A program made the translations under genes and the position numbers. The notes under the pieces were generated by a model that made no database searches, was not told where the DNA came from, and was given only the letters and a program-made list of their open reading frames with translations. Shown in pieces: positions 1,028-57,473 of a DNA stretch of 64,000 nt. Location of the stretch: positions 186,001 through 250,000 of the forward strand of contig NZ_SMNA01000004.1 in assembly GCF_004353825.1 (NCBI RefSeq). The letters are read 5' to 3'. Source of the stretch: Occultella glacieicola. Lineage in GTDB: Bacteria; Actinomycetota; Actinomycetes; Actinomycetales; Beutenbergiaceae. Within the stretch, counting starts at the first letter, position 1. Every line of letters starts with the position of its first letter.

Positions 1028-2995
1028 ATGTCGACCTCACCCACCGTCCGTCGCCCACGCCGCCGCGCCGTGCTGCTCGGCGGCCTCGCCACCGTCGGCG
1101 CCGCCGCCGGTTCGGTGTTCGCCGGGGCCCCGTTCGCGCTGCCTGCGCACGGTGCCCCGTCCTCCGCCGGTCCGCTGCCCCCTGTGGCTGCGCTTCCCGA
1201 CGGTCAGCCGGACCGGACCTCCTTCGAACCCGCCGAGCAGCGGTTCGCGACCTTCCTGGTCACGCTCGCCGACATCGCCAACGACGTCGACGACACCGAC
1301 ACCGAACTGCGTGGCTTCATCCACGGGGGCTGGTGGCGCAGCCCTGCCGAACCGTTCAACGCCCGCATCAGCGAACTCGTGTACGTGCTCGCCTGGTTCG
1401 TCACGACCGAACGGTCGTGGAACCCGTACGTGGGGGATCCGGCGCTGCTGGCCCGGCTGGACGCGGCGCTCGACCACTACCTGCGGCTGCAGCACGAGGA
1501 CGGCTCCTGGCCGGAGTACGAACCTCAGGAGCGCTCCAGGGCGGCCACCGCGTTCGCGCTCGGCTACCTGAGCAAGACCCTGGCGCACCTGCGCGCCGCG
1601 GACCTGCTGCCGCAACGGCGGGCCGCGCTCAGCACGGCGATGTACGCCGCCATGACCTGGTTCCTCGACCCGGCGAACACCGGCATCTGGCAACCCGAGC
1701 GGGTCGAGTTCGTGAACCAGCCCATGGCCGGGCTGGCCGGTGCGGCGAAGGCCCTGACGCTCGACCCGGACCCGGCGCTGCAGGCCCTGTTGAGAAACCG
1801 TGTCGACTACCTCGCCGCGCACGGGCAGAGCCCAGCCGGGTTCCTCTACGAGCCCCGCGGGATGGACATCGCCTACAACCTGAACGTGACCCTCACCGAG
1901 GTGATCGAGATCCACGAGGCCCTCGGCCACCCGGTGCTGCTGCCGTTGGTGCGTCGCCTCGCGGACTGGCTCGGATACGCGAACGTGCCCGAGCCCGACG
2001 GCTCCGGGCTCATCTCGTTCGCGTCCGGCGCCGCCCGCACCCCGATGTACTTCCTGGACGACGCCACCACCGACTTCCAGCAGCGCGACCTGGGCTCGGT
2101 GCTCTCGGGCCGGGTGCCTGCGCTGCGGCCGTTCTACACCACCGCGGGAGACCGGGACCGGATCCGGGCCGAGTGGGCCGCCGACCCCGACCCGGTGCCC
2201 GCGCTGACGCCGGGGGCCGTGAACCCACGGATCCCCGCGAACATCGGATATGGCGAGGACTACCCGAGCCGGCGCGCCAAGGACCTCGCGCTCGCGCAGA
2301 TGCCACCCGTGCGCCGGCGCCGGTTCACCGAACTGCGCACCGACCCCCAGGACCAGTACTACCTGTTCGTGCGCCGGCCCAGCCACTACGTGCAGGCCTT
2401 CTTCGGAACCCGCCCGAACGGGGTGGTCCGGGCCGGGTTCGGGCTGCTCTGGCACCCCGAGGGCGGCGTGTTCGTGCACGGCGGGCAGAACTCGAACACC
2501 GAGTGCTGGGCGAGCGTGTTCGCGGCTGGCGGCACCGACGGTGCGTCGAACCTCGCGCCGACGTTCTACGACGGCCCGGTCACGCACGGCCACATCGTCA
2601 CCGACGTCTCCGACGTCGGTGACCTCGGCATCGGCTGGACCACCACCGGCGGCAACGTGACCGGCGCCGCCCTGCTCACCGACGACGGTCTGGTCCGCGA
2701 GATCACCACGACGATGGACGCCCGCGAGCAGATCCCGCTCGTCCTGATGCCGACCGACGACCTGCGCTGGTCCGACGGCACGAGAGCCGAGTACGGGACC
2801 GCCACCACCGCCGTCGCCACCTCGGCGACGCTGACCCGCGGCCAGGTGAGCCTCGTGATCGACTGGGGCTCCGCCGTCGAGGTGACCCTCACCCCGACGG
2901 AGCGGACCTACTTCGCCGACGGCCGCCGTCGGGCCCACATGCTGCGGGTCCCACACGGGCGGGCCGGACGGATCGCCTACACGTTCACCGGCTGA
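1028..2995 (+). CDS. Tat-exported alpha/alpha-toroid protein, possible polysaccharide lyase or hydrolase
   Basis: 655 residues. The start is ATG 1028, behind GGAAGGG; the open frame continues upstream but lacks a ribosome site there. The N terminus carries consecutive arginines, a hydrophobic stretch and an Ala-rich cleavage region ([12 protein letters not shown]...), as in Tat-exported proteins. Residues about 60-330 are helical and rich in Trp/Tyr/His (for example [20 protein letters not shown] and HEDGSWPEY), resembling the toroid of polysaccharide lyases and unsaturated-glycan hydrolases. The C-terminal half is predicted beta-rich. I recognise no specific family. The divergent IclR gene and the LacI-like operator suggest sugar-controlled expression, and nearby GH78 and the giant exported protein support a role in plant or microbial polysaccharide breakdown. 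The 3' end overlaps the convergent SDR gene by 11 bases. Confidence 0.8.
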
Positions 2996-3938
2996 GGCCC
3001 GCCGGGAACGGGGATCCGGTGAGCCGTTGCGAGACGTCCCAGATCCGGGCGGCGTCGCCGGCGCCGCGCAAGGGAGGGTAGAGGCGTTGCGCGGCGGGCG
3101 GGCCGCCGAGGTGACCCGGGCCGCTCGGTCCGTACAGGACACCGGACCGGGCAGCGGGGTCGGTCGCGGCCATCAGGGCCGGCAGCGTCGCGGACTCGAC
3201 GGTGCCGAGGAGGATGCCGCGGGCCGAGAGCGCCCGGATTGCCCTGACCTGTGGCGAGTCCTGGGTGCGGCCGAGCTCGGGGCGGGCGGCGAGCAGGCTC
3301 GTGGGGGCGACGCCCGGGTGGGCGAGGTTGCTGGTGATACCCCAGCCGTTCGCCGTGCTGCGGCGGTCGAGCTCCAGGCCGAACAGCCCCAGTGCGATCT
3401 TGGACTGGCTGTAGGCGCGTTGCCCCCGATACCCGCGCTCCCAGGCGAGATCGTCCCAGTTGATCCGGCCGGAGCGGGCGGCGATGCTGATCTGCGAGGT
3501 GACCCGGGCGCGGCCGGCCCGCAGCAGCGGCAGCAGCGCGCCGACCAGGGCGACGTGGCCGAGGTGGTTCGTGCCGAACTGGAGCTCGAAGCCGTCGGCC
3601 GTGGTCTGCCGGTCCGGCGGCGTCATCACGCCCGCGTTGTTGATCAGGAGGTGGATCGGGCGGCCCTCACCGCGAAGGGCCTCGCCGAGCGCGGCCACGG
3701 ACGTGAGCGAGGAGAGGTCCAGCCTGCGCAGCGAGACCCGTGCGCCCGGGTGTGCGTCCCGGATCCGCTCCACCGCCGCCTCGCCCTTGCGCGCGTTGCG
3801 CACCGGGAGGACGACCTCGGCGCCGGCCGCGGCCAGGCGAGCGGCGATGCCGAGGCCGATCCCGTCGCTGGCGCCGGTGACCAGGGCGAGTCGTCCGGCC
3901 AGGTCCGGCACGGGATGGTCGAGCAGATGACGTGGCAT
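2985..3938 (-). CDS. Short-chain dehydrogenase/reductase
   Basis: 317 residues, an NAD(P)-dependent Rossmann enzyme of the classical/retinol-dehydrogenase-like SDR type. The cofactor motif TGASDGIG is at residues 21-28, INNAG at 99-103, and the catalytic Tyr176 and Lys180 occur in YSQSK. The start is ATG 3938, which has GAAGGA upstream; the longer open frame has no such site. It is divergent from an MmyB-type regulator, a very common pairing in actinobacteria, in which the regulator is thought to control the reductase. The substrate cannot be told from sequence. Confidence 0.93.
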
Positions 3939-4135
3939 GGCGGTCCTTCGGATCGGTGGGGCGGGCGTGCCCGCGTTGCGACCTGATCGTGGGCCGATCG
4001 CCGCTCGATATCCAGGACCTCCCGGTCCGAGGCTCCCCGGGCCGCCCGAATACCGCAAGGGGGGATCGATGGGCCGTGGCGCAGCGCCCGAGCTCCGGGT
4101 AGAAACAAGGACGGGAGCCGAGCAGAGGGAGCATC

Positions 4136-4969
4136 GTGATCGATCGCAGCGGATTGGCGGACTTCCTCCGGAGCCGACGGGAGGCGCTGCAGCCGGAGGA
4201 CGTCGGTCTCCCGCGCGGCCCGCGCCGCCGCACCGGCGGGCTACGTCGCGAGGAGGTGGCGGCGCTGTGTCACATGTCCGTCGACTACTACTCCCGGCTC
4301 GAGCGGAAGCGGGGTCCGCACCCGTCCGAGCGCATGCTCGCCTCGATCGCCCAGGGACTGCACCTCTCGCTCGACGAGCGCGACCACCTGTTCCGCCTCG
4401 CCGGGCACAACCCGCCGGCCCGGGGGGCGTTCGGCGACCACATCAGCCCCGGTCTGCTGCGCGTGCTCGACCGGCTGATCGATACCCCGGCGGAGATCAC
4501 GACCGAACTCGGCGAGACCCTGCGGCAGACCCCGCTCGGCGTGGCCCTCGTCGGTGACCTGACGCGTTTCACCGGCCCGGCCCGCAGCCAGGGGTACCGC
4601 TGGTTCACCGACCCCCAGGCGCGGCTGATCCATGCCCCGCAGGAGCACGGGTTCCTCAGCCGGATGTACGCCGCCGGTCTGCGCGAGGTGGTCGGGGTCC
4701 GCGGCCCCCGGTCCCGGGCCGCGCAGCTGGCCGACCTGCTGCTGGACCAGAGTGAGGAGTTCCGACGCATCTGGGACGATCATGAGATCGGCATCCGTCC
4801 GCACGAGGTGAAGCACTTCGTTCACCCGGACGTCGGTCCTCTGGAACTGAGCTGCCAGCGGCTGCTCGACCCGGACCAGTCGCACTGGCTGCTCGTCTAC
4901 ACGGCCGTCCCCGGCAGCGAGAGTCACGAGCGACTCCGGATGCTCTCCGTGGTCGGAGCCTCGCGCTGA
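4136..4969 (+). CDS. XRE-family regulator with MmyB-like ligand-binding domain
   Basis: 277 residues. It starts at GTG 4136 with AGAGGGA about 7 bases upstream. The N terminus has a helix-turn-helix ([20 protein letters not shown], then [20 protein letters not shown]). The rest matches the MmyB-like PAS-type domain, with motifs such as [16 protein letters not shown], and ends in [19 protein letters not shown]. The length is usual for the family. It lies divergent from the SDR gene and probably represses or activates it in response to a small hydrophobic ligand; members of this family have been linked to fatty-acid-like ligands. Target and ligand are inferred only from neighbourhood. Confidence 0.92.
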
Positions 4970-52851: not shown

Positions 52852-54009
52852 ATGACGAAGAGCGGCAGTTTCAAGCGCGCGGTTCGCGATCACGCACGCA
52901 GGACCGGGCAGCGCTACACCCAGGCGCGGGCAGACCTGGAGGACATCAGTCGGCCGTTCGCCGACACGCGGCCCTTCGACCCGGACGCGCTGACGGTCCG
53001 CCTGGAGTCGAGGTACGGGATCCGCATCACCTCGATGCTGCCGATCGACGATGACCCAAGGACGCGGCCTCGGGGCTCTTGGCCCGGCCATTACCCCTCG
53101 ACGTTGATCGTCGAGCGCGAGCGGGGAGCCCCCTGGATCGCCCGGGTGTTCTCGTCGCCGGCCGACCGGGTCAGCCGCGTACAGGAGGACGCCGAGATCC
53201 TCCGCTTCCTCGCGGATCACGGCTTCCCCGCCGAGCGGTCCGCGGTCGACGACGCCGTCTCGGTGATCGACGGCAGCGGAGTGCTGCTGACCGCGTTCAT
53301 CGCCGGCGGGCGGCCGACCGACGCCCACGGTCGAGTGACCTCGCCCGAGGTGCTCCACGAGTTGGGGAGCCTGCTGGGCCGGCTGCACAACTTGCCACCG
53401 GTTGGCGGCGCAGCTGCCCGTGACGGCGGCTCGGAGGAACACGACGGCGGCTTCCACGTCGGACGGCCTCGGCAGGACCTCGTGGCTGCGATGCGGTTCC
53501 TGGTGAGCGTCGAGGACAGGGTCGCACCGGCGGGGAGGGCGACGTTCGAGCGACTGCGTGATGACGTCGAGTCCGCAGACGACGCCGAGGGTCTGCCCGA
53601 AGCATTCACGCACGGAAACTTCCACGCGTGGGCCGCCGTCGGTGTGCCCGGCGAGCTCAGCATCGTCGGGTGGGCGGGGTCCGGTCGTGGCCCGAGACTG
53701 CCGGCGCTGGCGTGGCTGCTGCGCACGGCCTCGGAAGGTCGACCCGACTTCGTCGATGCCGTGATGCACGGCTACCGCGAGCACGTCTCATTGACCGACG
53801 AGGAGGTCGACCGGCTGCCGGCGGTGCTCAACATCCGACCGCTGTGGTTGGCGTGCCTGGAGTACCGGGAGGCGGTGCGTGCCGGGCAGACGCCCCTGTT
53901 GGACGACGACGGAGGCTACGGCTTCCACCGTCCGGAACGATCCGAGCACCTGGCAGCGCAAGTGGTCGCGGCACTGAGCGACCCGCCGCACCGGTCAATC
54001 CAGCCCTGA
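52852..54009 (+). CDS. Phosphotransferase-fold pseudokinase with short basic N-terminal module
   Basis: 385 residues from ATG 52852, directly after GGAGGG. The first 30 residues form a basic helix (FKRAVRDHARRTGQRYTQAR). The APH-type fold follows, but the three catalytic positions are altered: the HGD loop reads HGNFHAWAAV (Asn256 for Asp, Ala for the later Asn) and the metal-binding Asp of the DFG-like strand is Gly273 (SIVGWAGSGRG). It should therefore be catalytically inactive as a phosphotransferase, yet structural residues are well kept. Its end overlaps the convergent ABC gene by 15 bases. It might be a binding or scaffold protein; ligand unknown. Confidence 0.82.
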   Translation: MTKSGSFKRAVRDHARRTGQRYTQARADLEDISRPFADTRPFDPDALTVRLESRYGIRITSMLPIDDDPRTRPRGSWPGHYPSTLIVERERGAPWIARVFSSPADRVSRVQEDAEILRFLADHGFPAERSAVDDAVSVIDGSGVLLTAFIAGGRPTDAHGRVTSPEVLHELGSLLGRLHNLPPVGGAAARDGGSEEHDGGFHVGRPRQDLVAAMRFLVSVEDRVAPAGRATFERLRDDVESADDAEGLPEAFTHGNFHAWAAVGVPGELSIVGWAGSGRGPRLPALAWLLRTASEGRPDFVDAVMHGYREHVSLTDEEVDRLPAVLNIRPLWLACLEYREAVRAGQTPLLDDDGGYGFHRPERSEHLAAQVVAALSDPPHRSIQP

Positions 54010-55743
54010 CGGACGGCCCGTCCACGCGCGCCAGAGCGCGGCGTACGCACCGTCGGCCGCGGACAGCTCGTCATGGGTGCCGAGCTCGGTCAGGCGGCCG
54101 GCGTCCATCACGGCGATGCGGTCGGCGTCGCGAGCCGTGTGGAGCCGGTGGGCCACGGCGATCACCGTACGGCCCTGGGCGGTGGCAGCGAGCGCGCGTT
54201 CGGTGTGACGGGCCGCGCGGGGATCGAGGAGTGCGGTGGCTTCGTCGAGGACGATGGTGTGCGGGTCCGCGAGAAGCACGCGGGCGAGAGCGACATGCTG
54301 GGCGTGAGCGCCGCTGAGCTCGTGGCCGCCCAGGTCGGCGTCGAGCGCTTCCGGGAGCTCGTCCACCCAGTCGGCGCCGACCGCGTGGAGCGCGGCGATC
54401 AGGTCGTCGTCGCCGGCGTGCGGCGCCGCGATCGTGAGGTTGTCGCGCAGGGAGTCGGCGAAGACATGGTGCTCCTGCGTGAGGAGCACGACATGGTTGC
54501 GAAGTTCGGAGGCTGGGAGGTTCGCGGTCTCGACGCCGCCGACGGTCACCGACCCCTGGCGCGGGCGGTCGATCCCGGCGATGAGGCGCCCGAGCGTGGT
54601 CTTGCCGGCCCCGGACGTGCCCACGATCGCGAGATGCTCACCTGCCTGCACGTCCAGGCTCACGCCCTCGAGCACATCGCCGGTCTCCCCGTAGGCGTAG
54701 TAGACATCGGTGATCACGATGCGCTCGTCGACCGGTGACGGCGCGCTCGGTGCGGGGGTCCGCTCACTCTCGGCGCCGAGACCTTCGACGCGCGCGAACG
54801 AGGCCAGGCTGCTCTGCAGCGTCTCGACCCAGATCATGATCGTGTCGATCGGTCCACTCAGCTGGCGCAGGTAGAGGGTGGCGGCGACCACGGCGCCGAG
54901 GCTGATGGCCTGATCGAGGTAGAGCAGACCGCCGACACAGAACACGGCGCCCACGGCGAGCGCCGTCGAGACGTCGATGGTCGGGAAGAGCACCGTGCGC
55001 AGTCGCAGCGTCCGGAGCTGGGCGGTGGTGGCCGTGGCCACGGTGTCTGCGCAGGCCCTCCGACGACGCTCCTGCAGCCCGAGGAGTTCGACCGTGCGAG
55101 CGCCGGCAGCCGTGGTGGCCAACGCATCGGCGACCTCGGCATGCGATGCGCTCTGGGCCAGGTACGCCGGGCGCGCTCGCCGCAGGTACCAACGCAGCAC
55201 GAGCGGGATCGCGAGCAGCGCGACCAATGCCACCCCGCCCAGCACCGGTGAGAGCAGGAGCAGCGCGGTCAGCACGATCATCGCTTGGATCAGCGCGAAC
55301 AGCACCTCCGGCGCGGCATCACGCAGAACCGTGGCGACAAGTCCGGCGTCGGTGGTGGCCCGCGAGGTCAGGTCCCCGGTTCCGGCCCGCTCCACCGTGC
55401 GCGCGGGCAGCCGCATCAGCCTGTAGGTCAGCTGCTCGCGCAGGCGCGCGGCCGTTCGTTCACCGAAGCGGTATCCCAGATAGCGGGCGAGGTAGCCGAG
55501 AGCGAACTGCCCGACGGCGGCCAGCACCACGAGCAGGCCGAGCCGGTCGATCTCGGCGAGCCCATGGCCGGCCTGGACGCCGTTGACGATCTGTCCGACC
55601 AGCCACGGGGCGAGGAGCCCCGCCGCGGCCGCGGCACAGTTCGTGCCGATGACGGCGGCGAACGTGGCTCGATCCGCGCGGACCAGACTGGCCGCTGCGC
55701 GGCGGACCTCGGCGGGAGTCGCGATCGGGAGCGGCGCACTCAC
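53995..55743 (-). CDS. ABC exporter subunit with degenerate signature (heterodimer partner B)
   Basis: 582 residues from GTG 55743, overlapping the upstream subunit stop by GTGA. Six transmembrane helices (about 30-310) precede an ATPase domain. It has intact Walker A GTSGAGKTT, Q-loop LLTQEHHVF, Walker B TIVLDEATALLD and H-loop AHRLHT, but its signature reads LSGAHAQ (about residue 472) instead of LSGGQ. Its partner has the opposite defects, so in the dimer one composite site should be canonical and the other inactive. It likely exports a drug or peptide from the cytoplasm. Confidence 0.9.
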   Translation of the reverse strand: MSAPLPIATPAEVRRAAASLVRADRATFAAVIGTNCAAAAAGLLAPWLVGQIVNGVQAGHGLAEIDRLGLLVVLAAVGQFALGYLARYLGYRFGERTAARLREQLTYRLMRLPARTVERAGTGDLTSRATTDAGLVATVLRDAAPEVLFALIQAMIVLTALLLLSPVLGGVALVALLAIPLVLRWYLRRARPAYLAQSASHAEVADALATTAAGARTVELLGLQERRRRACADTVATATTAQLRTLRLRTVLFPTIDVSTALAVGAVFCVGGLLYLDQAISLGAVVAATLYLRQLSGPIDTIMIWVETLQSSLASFARVEGLGAESERTPAPSAPSPVDERIVITDVYYAYGETGDVLEGVSLDVQAGEHLAIVGTSGAGKTTLGRLIAGIDRPRQGSVTVGGVETANLPASELRNHVVLLTQEHHVFADSLRDNLTIAAPHAGDDDLIAALHAVGADWVDELPEALDADLGGHELSGAHAQHVALARVLLADPHTIVLDEATALLDPRAARHTERALAATAQGRTVIAVAHRLHTARDADRIAVMDAGRLTELGTHDELSAADGAYAALWRAWTGRPSGLD

Positions 55744-57473
55744 GAGGCTTCGCCTTCGTCGGGCTTGTTGGGCTTGTCCGGATCGGTGGTCTCCCCACGT
55801 AGGACGAGAGCCGCGTAGGCGGGCTCGTCACGGATCAGGCCGGCGTGAGTGCCGCTCGCGACCAGCCGGTCGCCGGCCACGAAATGGACGTGATCGGCCT
55901 CCGCCAGCATCAGGATCGACGTCGAGGTGACCACCGTGGTGCGGCCCCGACGCGCCCGGACCAGTCGCGCGACGACGTTGGCCTCGGTGGCGGCATCGAC
56001 GGCGGAGGTCGGATCGACCGCCAGCAGCACCCTCGGCGTGGCCAGGACCGCCCGGGCGAGCCGCAGTCGTTGCCGTTGACCACCGGAGAGGTTGCTCCCG
56101 TGGGAGTCGATCCTCGACTCCAGACCGTCCGGCAGGGCGTGCACGAGATCGTCCGCCGCAGCGACGTGCAGGGCATGCGGGACCACGTCCTCATCGACGT
56201 CGTGAGCGCCGGCCACCACCTCGCCGACCGTCCCCGCGAAGAGCTCCGCGTCGTTGTCGGCCACCAGGACCTGGCGACGGAGCTCGCCGGGACCCATCTC
56301 GGCCATCGGCTCACCGTGCCAGGTCCCTCCCGGGCGCAGGCCGCCGAGCCGGTCGACCAGCGCCACCGCATCGGCCTGCCGCGACGTGGCGATCACGGTG
56401 AAGGCGCCCGCTGCGACCTCGAGGCCCGTGACCGAGTCGATGAGATCGCCGTGCGCCGGCACCGCCCCGGGCCTGACGCCGTCGCCACGCTGCAGCCTGA
56501 GGAAGTCCGTCACCCGGCGGCCGGCGACAAGCGCGCGACTGAGATCGACGGCGCCCTCGATGAAGGACGATACCGGGACGACCAGGAGGGCGGCATACCC
56601 GAAGACCGCGACCAGTTCGCCGATGGAGATCTCGCCCTCGACGGTCAGCCGCGCCGCCAACCACACCACCACGGCCACGAACAGGGTCGGCACGCCCAGG
56701 GCGGTCGCCTGGATCAGGCTGGTGACCCGCCCGACCCGGTAGCCCTGGTGCTGCAGCTCGTGGGACGCCCGCCGGAACCGGTCGGCATAGACCTCCTTGC
56801 CGCCCAGACCGTTGAGCACGGTCAGTCCGTCGATGATGTCGACGATCCGGCCGGTCAGTGCGCCCTGCTGAGCGCGGTACTGCGCACCGACCGCCTGCAA
56901 CGGGCCGAGCGCTGGCCCGAGGATCAGTGCCAGGACCGGCACACCGCAGATGACCACGACGGCCAGCAGCGTCGAGATCTGGAACAGCAGTACCGCGATC
57001 ACCACATACGCGACGGCGGCTCCCACGCCGGGCCCGGTCACCGTGAGGCTGCGGCCGAGCGTCCATGCGTCGACGGTCCCGATGGCCACCACCTCTCCGG
57101 CGCGGCCTCGCCGCTGCTGGGCGGCGCCGAGCCGGATCGACTGTGCTGCGAGCGTCGTCACCGTCCGGAACGCGGCGTCCATGCGTACCTTCGTCATCGT
57201 CCGGTGTCGCCAGATGCCCAACCAGGCGAGCACCGCACCCGAGCCGACCAGGGCCGCCGACTACGCGAACACCGCACCCCTGTCGGCGTCGGCGAGACTG
57301 TCGACGGCTCGCGCGAGCAGGTACGGCGGGAATACCAGGCCCACCATCCAGACGGTGCCGAGGAACGCCCCCAGAGCCACCCTCCGGCGTTGCCGGAGCA
57401 CGAGCCACGCCAGGTACGACCACGGCCCTCGGAATGTCGGAGCCCGCTGCTCGGCGTCGGCGGGACTCGTCAT
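55740..57473 (-). pseudogene. ABC exporter subunit interrupted by an in-frame TAG (heterodimer partner A)
   Basis: 578 codons from ATG 57473 (ribosome site GGGTGG). Codon 71, at 57263-57261, is TAG; the same frame continues without shift for the remaining 507 codons, so a single base change or readthrough is involved. The stop falls after the first transmembrane segment (LGTVWMVGLVFPPYLLARAV). The ATPase domain has a good signature (NLSGGQRQR) but Walker A is replaced (ATSRQADAVALV, no Lys), the Q-loop reads VADNDAEL, Walker B is AVDPTSAVD without the catalytic Glu, and the H-loop His is Ser. Restart at GTG 57233 would drop helix 1. A sequencing error is not excluded. Confidence 0.8.

Follow-up and report, generated by a model that had tools for sequence, protein, structure and literature searches.

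The two adjacent half-transporter genes examined here belong to a widespread actinobacterial heterodimeric ABC exporter of the type I fold, which probably (at about 0.72 by our estimate) works as a one-site machine whose opposite ATP site is most likely a nucleotide-free hinge. The pair lies in a stretch of 64,000 nucleotides from Occultella glacieicola, the whole of which is referred to as the window. In the proposed arrangement, subunit B would supply the Walker A, Walker B, Q-loop and H-loop motifs, and subunit A the LSGGQ signature and the D-loop, to a single composite site where ATP would be bound and hydrolyzed. At the opposite site, composed of the ATP-binding face of A and the C-loop of B, the catalytic and phosphate-gripping elements appear to be gone.

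Inspection of open reading frames and motifs in the window shows that the minus strand carries two TMD-NBD half-transporter frames side by side, the A stop and the B start overlapping by 4 nt (55740-55743). In B, the Pfam matches to ABC_membrane (PF00664, 112.7 bits) and then ABC_tran (PF00005, 87.7 bits) lie above the curated cut-offs, as do those of the longest A reading frame with a start codon (58.1 and 31.9 bits, respectively), in which truncation leaves an ABC_membrane match that begins only at position 95 of 274. The ABC_tran match covers profile positions 1-137 in B and only 46-136 in A, the Walker A part of A being unseen by the profile. With PF00664 followed by PF00005 in one chain, both A and B are type I (type IV fold) ABC half-exporters; being unlike, adjacent half-transporters that combine a consensus composite site with a degenerate one, they fall among the asymmetric heterodimeric exporters and would be expected from their sequences to assemble as an A-B heterodimer. 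A gene convergent with B (52855-54009, plus strand) encodes a 384-aa protein conserved in the genus only and lacking a Pfam match, which by eye resembles APH-type phosphotransferases with a degenerate catalytic loop. The features of the pair are summarized in Table 1.

Table 1. Coordinates of the exporter genes and their ATP-site motifs (window positions, except the last line)
Feature	Position	Strand	Description
Subunit A frame	55740..57473	-	TMD-NBD half-transporter, 578 codons; degenerate ATP-binding face, intact C-loop, in-frame stop inside
Subunit B	53995..55743	-	Intact TMD-NBD half-transporter, 582 aa
Longest A ORF with start codon	55740..57233	-	GTG start at 57233, 497 aa; without the first transmembrane helix
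In-frame stop in A	57261..57263	-	TAG at codon 71; sense codon in all three congeners
A, Walker A position	56358..56390	-	ATSRQADAVAL instead of the motif; Lys in 0/108 homologues
A, Q-loop position	56238..56270	-	VLVADNDAELF, Asp for Gln; Gln in 0/108, mostly Asp or Glu
A, C-loop	56076..56090	-	LSGGQ, intact, serves the good site; SGGQ in 108/108 homologues
A, Walker B/D-loop	55995..56027	-	LLAVDPTSAVD; Val for Walker B Asp, Asp at catalytic position, D-loop kept
A, H-loop position	55905..55934	-	VVTSTSILML, Ser for His; His in 0/108
B, Walker A	54595..54621	-	GTSGAGKTT; Lys in 111/111 homologues
B, Q-loop	54460..54492	-	VVLLTQEHHVF; Gln in 111/111 homologues
B, C-loop	54304..54318	-	Degenerate, LSGAH; LSGAQ in congeners
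B, Walker B and D-loop	54223..54258	-	TIVLDEATALLD; Asp-Glu in 111/111 homologues
B, H-loop	54142..54165	-	VIAVAHRL; His in 111/111 homologues
L160 pair, second subfamily	G000:C18:48000-54000, 1175-2884 and 2572-4626		

The motif assignments largely agree with those of the first-pass annotation, which had recognized a good Walker A, Walker B and H-loop in B (here GTSGAGKTT, DEAT and AHRL), an intact LSGGQ in A, and the loss of the Walker A Lys, Q-loop Gln and H-loop His from A, where these motif positions are indeed unrecognizable in sequence, and had placed all good elements in one composite site, which the ATP-binding motifs of B form with the C-loop of A. Its statement that A has lost the catalytic Glu proved to be a register slip: in a gapless alignment of LLAVDPTSAVD, the Walker B Asp corresponds to Val and the catalytic position holds an Asp, and the homologues, which mostly read VEPTSAVD, include the rarer variants LLLDDPTSAVD (L038) and VLDEPTSAVD (L191, L192) that fix the register. 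What A has lost instead is the Walker B Asp, an acidic residue persisting at the catalytic position (Asp here, Glu in most homologues). The degenerate LSGAH of B is likewise present in this strain as described but is not typical, the His being private to it and the three congeners carrying LSGAQ.

The same replacements are fixed across a set of 108 A chains (79 closer homologues and 29 from the order) and 111 B chains. No A chain has the Walker A Lys, the Q-loop Gln or the H-loop His, and every one has SGGQ; the Walker B Asp is nearly always gone, and the catalytic position is acidic in 107. All 111 B chains keep the Walker A Lys, the Q-loop Gln, the Asp-Glu and the H-loop His, and their C-loop reads DG(A/S)Q or TPAQ in most cases. 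A adjoins B in nearly all loci, and homologous pairs with intact motifs, which would have implied decay in this strain only, are absent from this set. Within the class, 110 of 198 sampled genomes match the A alignment at E 1e-60 or better, the weakest of these matches including milder exporters, and approximately 77 match it better than 1e-130 (a count taken from the table); the sequences inspected in the latter range are all fully or nearly fully degenerate, two of them keeping the Walker B Asp. The complementary degeneration is a property of the family and not of a decaying strain.

In a tree of 81 chains, built with the motif columns excluded, one branch (SH-aLRT 98) sets apart all the Walker A-less A chains and another (SH-aLRT 100) all of their B partners, the A clade and the B clade each dividing into the same two subfamilies. 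On this tree the loss of the Walker A Lys requires one change, and the residue at the catalytic position nine, so that the Walker A loss has a single origin here. The claim of an A-B heterodimer with one good and one wholly dead site gains support from these fixed losses and from the single change. In the second subfamily (L160; L199-L214), A lacks the Walker A Lys, the Gln and the His, and the C-loop of B is degenerate; it joins the window's subfamily on the A and B sides alike, but differs in that the D-loop Asp of B is gone as well (DEATAEAG versus DEATSALD, 10 of 10 rows of the tree set) and in that A mostly carries His at the Walker B Asp. The window's genome holds three fully degenerate pairs, namely that of the window, one on C16 (L034) and one on C18 near 49 kb (L160), together with four asymmetric pairs of a milder kind, in which A retains Walker A.

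Constraint, measured as the mean majority share per column group, follows the same division. The columns of A that once formed Walker A score 0.62 versus 0.67 for the rest of the domain, and the parts that are held are the C-loop (0.89) and the Walker B/D-loop stretch (0.87). In B, the C-loop scores 0.57 versus a domain mean of 0.78, and the parts that are held are Walker A (0.93), the Q-loop (0.98) and the H-loop (0.92). The motifs of one composite site are thus maintained and those serving only the other released. Some replaced positions of A (Pro366, Pro488 and Ser519) are nevertheless conserved, which indicates that the dead face retains structural constraints; with its persistent acidic residue and its strongly conserved Ser519, Pro520 and Pro366, this face may have some role left.

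Single-chain structure predictions, of moderate confidence (mean pLDDT 79.6 for a congener A and 73.3 for B), show in B the expected succession of strand, six-residue P-loop and helix starting at the Lys, whereas in the congener A a turn of only two residues links strand and helix at the place of the P-loop. The solved folds closest to A are MsRv1273c/72c, TmrAB and TM287/288, all asymmetric heterodimeric exporters; a sequence search found no solved member of the present family, its best matches being general exporters. A salt bridge between A-Arg365 and B-Asp477 in place of ATP was considered as a candidate and is not supported: both residues occur together in 57 of 109 pairs, in a distribution that follows the clades with many exceptions.

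The strongest alternative, although an unlikely one, is that the pair works as TM287/288 and BmrCD do, as a common asymmetric exporter whose second site carries unusual residues and binds ATP, failing in hydrolysis alone. Such a reading is favored by the shared fold, by nearest solved relatives of that very kind and by the acidic residue at the catalytic position of A in 107 of 108 chains, but it has to accommodate A chains that lack the P-loop glycines, the Walker A Lys and the Q-loop Gln, and almost always the Walker B Asp too, as well as Walker A columns that vary as freely as other parts of the domain, and milder pairs of the same genome that retain Walker A. MsRv1273c/72c, TM287/288, TmrAB, BmrCD and TAP resemble the present pair in their heterodimeric type I fold with one consensus and one degenerate site; in these mild exporters, however, the degenerate site keeps a Walker A that holds ATP, whereas the present A chains lack Walker A, the Q-loop Gln, the H-loop His and usually also the Walker B Asp. 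The Walker A retained by TM287/288, BmrCD and TAP has no counterpart among the 108 A chains, none of which has the Lys, and the earlier view that the degeneration exceeds that of TAP, TM287/288 and BmrCD is thereby supported. In MsRv1273c/72c, which comes from the same phylum, ATP is bound at the degenerate site, and the reason for an impaired ATP site in many ABC exporters is still described as unclear (PMC12038006).

Degenerate sites are altered chiefly in the catalytic Glu, the H-loop and the signature, with the Walker A Lys given as changed in ABCG5/G8 (to Arg) and in Pdr5 (to Cys) (PMC7756269). ABCG5/G8 is similar in that both the Walker A Lys and the signature are changed at its degenerate site (PMC7756269), and differs in that the Lys is replaced by Arg only and the fold is that of ABCG proteins. 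In yeast Pdr5 (ABCG/PDR), every motif of one site is changed, including the Walker A Lys, the H-loop His and the partner's C-loop (PMC7756269); the likeness extends to the degeneration of all motifs of one site, except that the catalytic position here stays acidic. Pdr5 is a single polypeptide of the ABCG fold with the NBD before the TMD, whereas the present exporter consists of two half-transporters with the TMD (ABC_membrane) before the NBD. Among the reviewed asymmetric exporters, only Pdr5, with its different fold, is comparably degenerate, and a Pdr5-like depth of degeneration here occurs in a type I exporter fold. Because a second nucleotide site continues to be discussed for Pdr5, which has lost the Walker A Lys (PMC7756269), nucleotide binding without this residue is not impossible. 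A literature search covering few subscription journals returned no paper on the present exporter family.

The second site has very likely lost the ability to hydrolyze ATP, and the loss of ATP binding would follow from the missing phosphate-gripping elements; the site would then most likely hold no nucleotide and act as a protein-protein hinge, with the B site opening and closing once per ATP. The stricter, clade-wide version, in which the second site is empty in all states, a protein contact replaces ATP, and one ATP is bound and hydrolyzed per cycle, stands at roughly even odds.

The copy in the window itself is probably non-functional. The first-pass annotation had overlooked the in-frame stop that breaks A at a position where 104 of 108 homologues have one and the same aromatic residue. 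A is intact in the three other searched genomes of Occultella (574-580 residues, 90-93% identical, same arrangement), so that the lesion is absent from relatives, as in a pseudogene; the window A is probably a recent pseudogene or yields a truncated A, and this genome probably no longer uses the A-B pair, or else the stop is an assembly error. That the stop reflects a sequencing or assembly error in a normal working pair is improbable: the assembly is a draft of 23 contigs, the lesion is single, and private amino-acid changes in A are not in excess (odds ratio 1.0), but a positive sign of error is absent, and B shows a weak surplus of private changes (odds ratio 2.2, p 0.06), among them the usually conserved C-loop residue, now His. 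Since the two other fully degenerate pairs in the genome have open frames, loss of the window copy could be tolerable.

A and B very probably work as a pair. B carries every ATP-binding motif, and the congener LSGAQ is one residue off consensus, as would suit a B homodimer accompanied by A as a structural or regulatory relic; the SGGQ of A is nonetheless preserved in 108 of 108 chains amid drift, the C-loop of B drifts, each chain keeps what the other lacks, and the two genes remain adjacent, which together make this arrangement highly improbable. Within the genus, the dN/dS ranges of A (0.17-0.24) and B (0.11-0.19) reflect purifying selection on both genes, as expected for working genes in the congeners. 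The notion that the motifs were lost from a dying gene in this strain alone, a notion to which the stop within A and the private C-loop His of B might lend color, can be dismissed, given dN/dS values well below 1 and A losses common to the three congeners with an intact A and to the whole wider family: intact relatives carry the same motifs.

B of the window is 65% identical to that of a Propionibacteriaceae MAG and about 58% identical to those of Streptomyces, versus at most 49% within its own order, and this affinity to other groups suggests horizontal acquisition. A plasmid of Streptomyces clavifer (NZ_CP107794.1; L168, 3683-7773) carries a pair whose B, at approximately 72% identity, is closer to the window B than any from the window's order outside the genus, which is likewise suggestive of horizontal spread.

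The exported substrate would be a small molecule or a peptide. No neighbor gene naming a substrate is common to the genus and the other homologous loci. In Streptomyces (L064-L142), another ABC exporter gene lies upstream of the pair in 42 loci and a gene for a secreted protein, by eye an M4-type metallopeptidase, lies downstream in 40, possibly forming a functional neighborhood; in one Streptomyces genome (L223, 9-6396 and 7619-11187), the pair directly follows NRPS-looking frames. These neighbors hint at peptide or metabolite export, and they are absent from the window's genus; no cluster matching known peptide exporters such as RamAB was seen in the few Streptomyces loci inspected.

A common proposal holds that unhydrolyzed ATP at the impaired site acts as a glue between the two domains. 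A family that is conserved and seemingly unable to hold ATP at its second site directly tests this proposal, with the milder pairs of the same genome as possible natural controls: if such an exporter pumps, ATP at the second site is dispensable.
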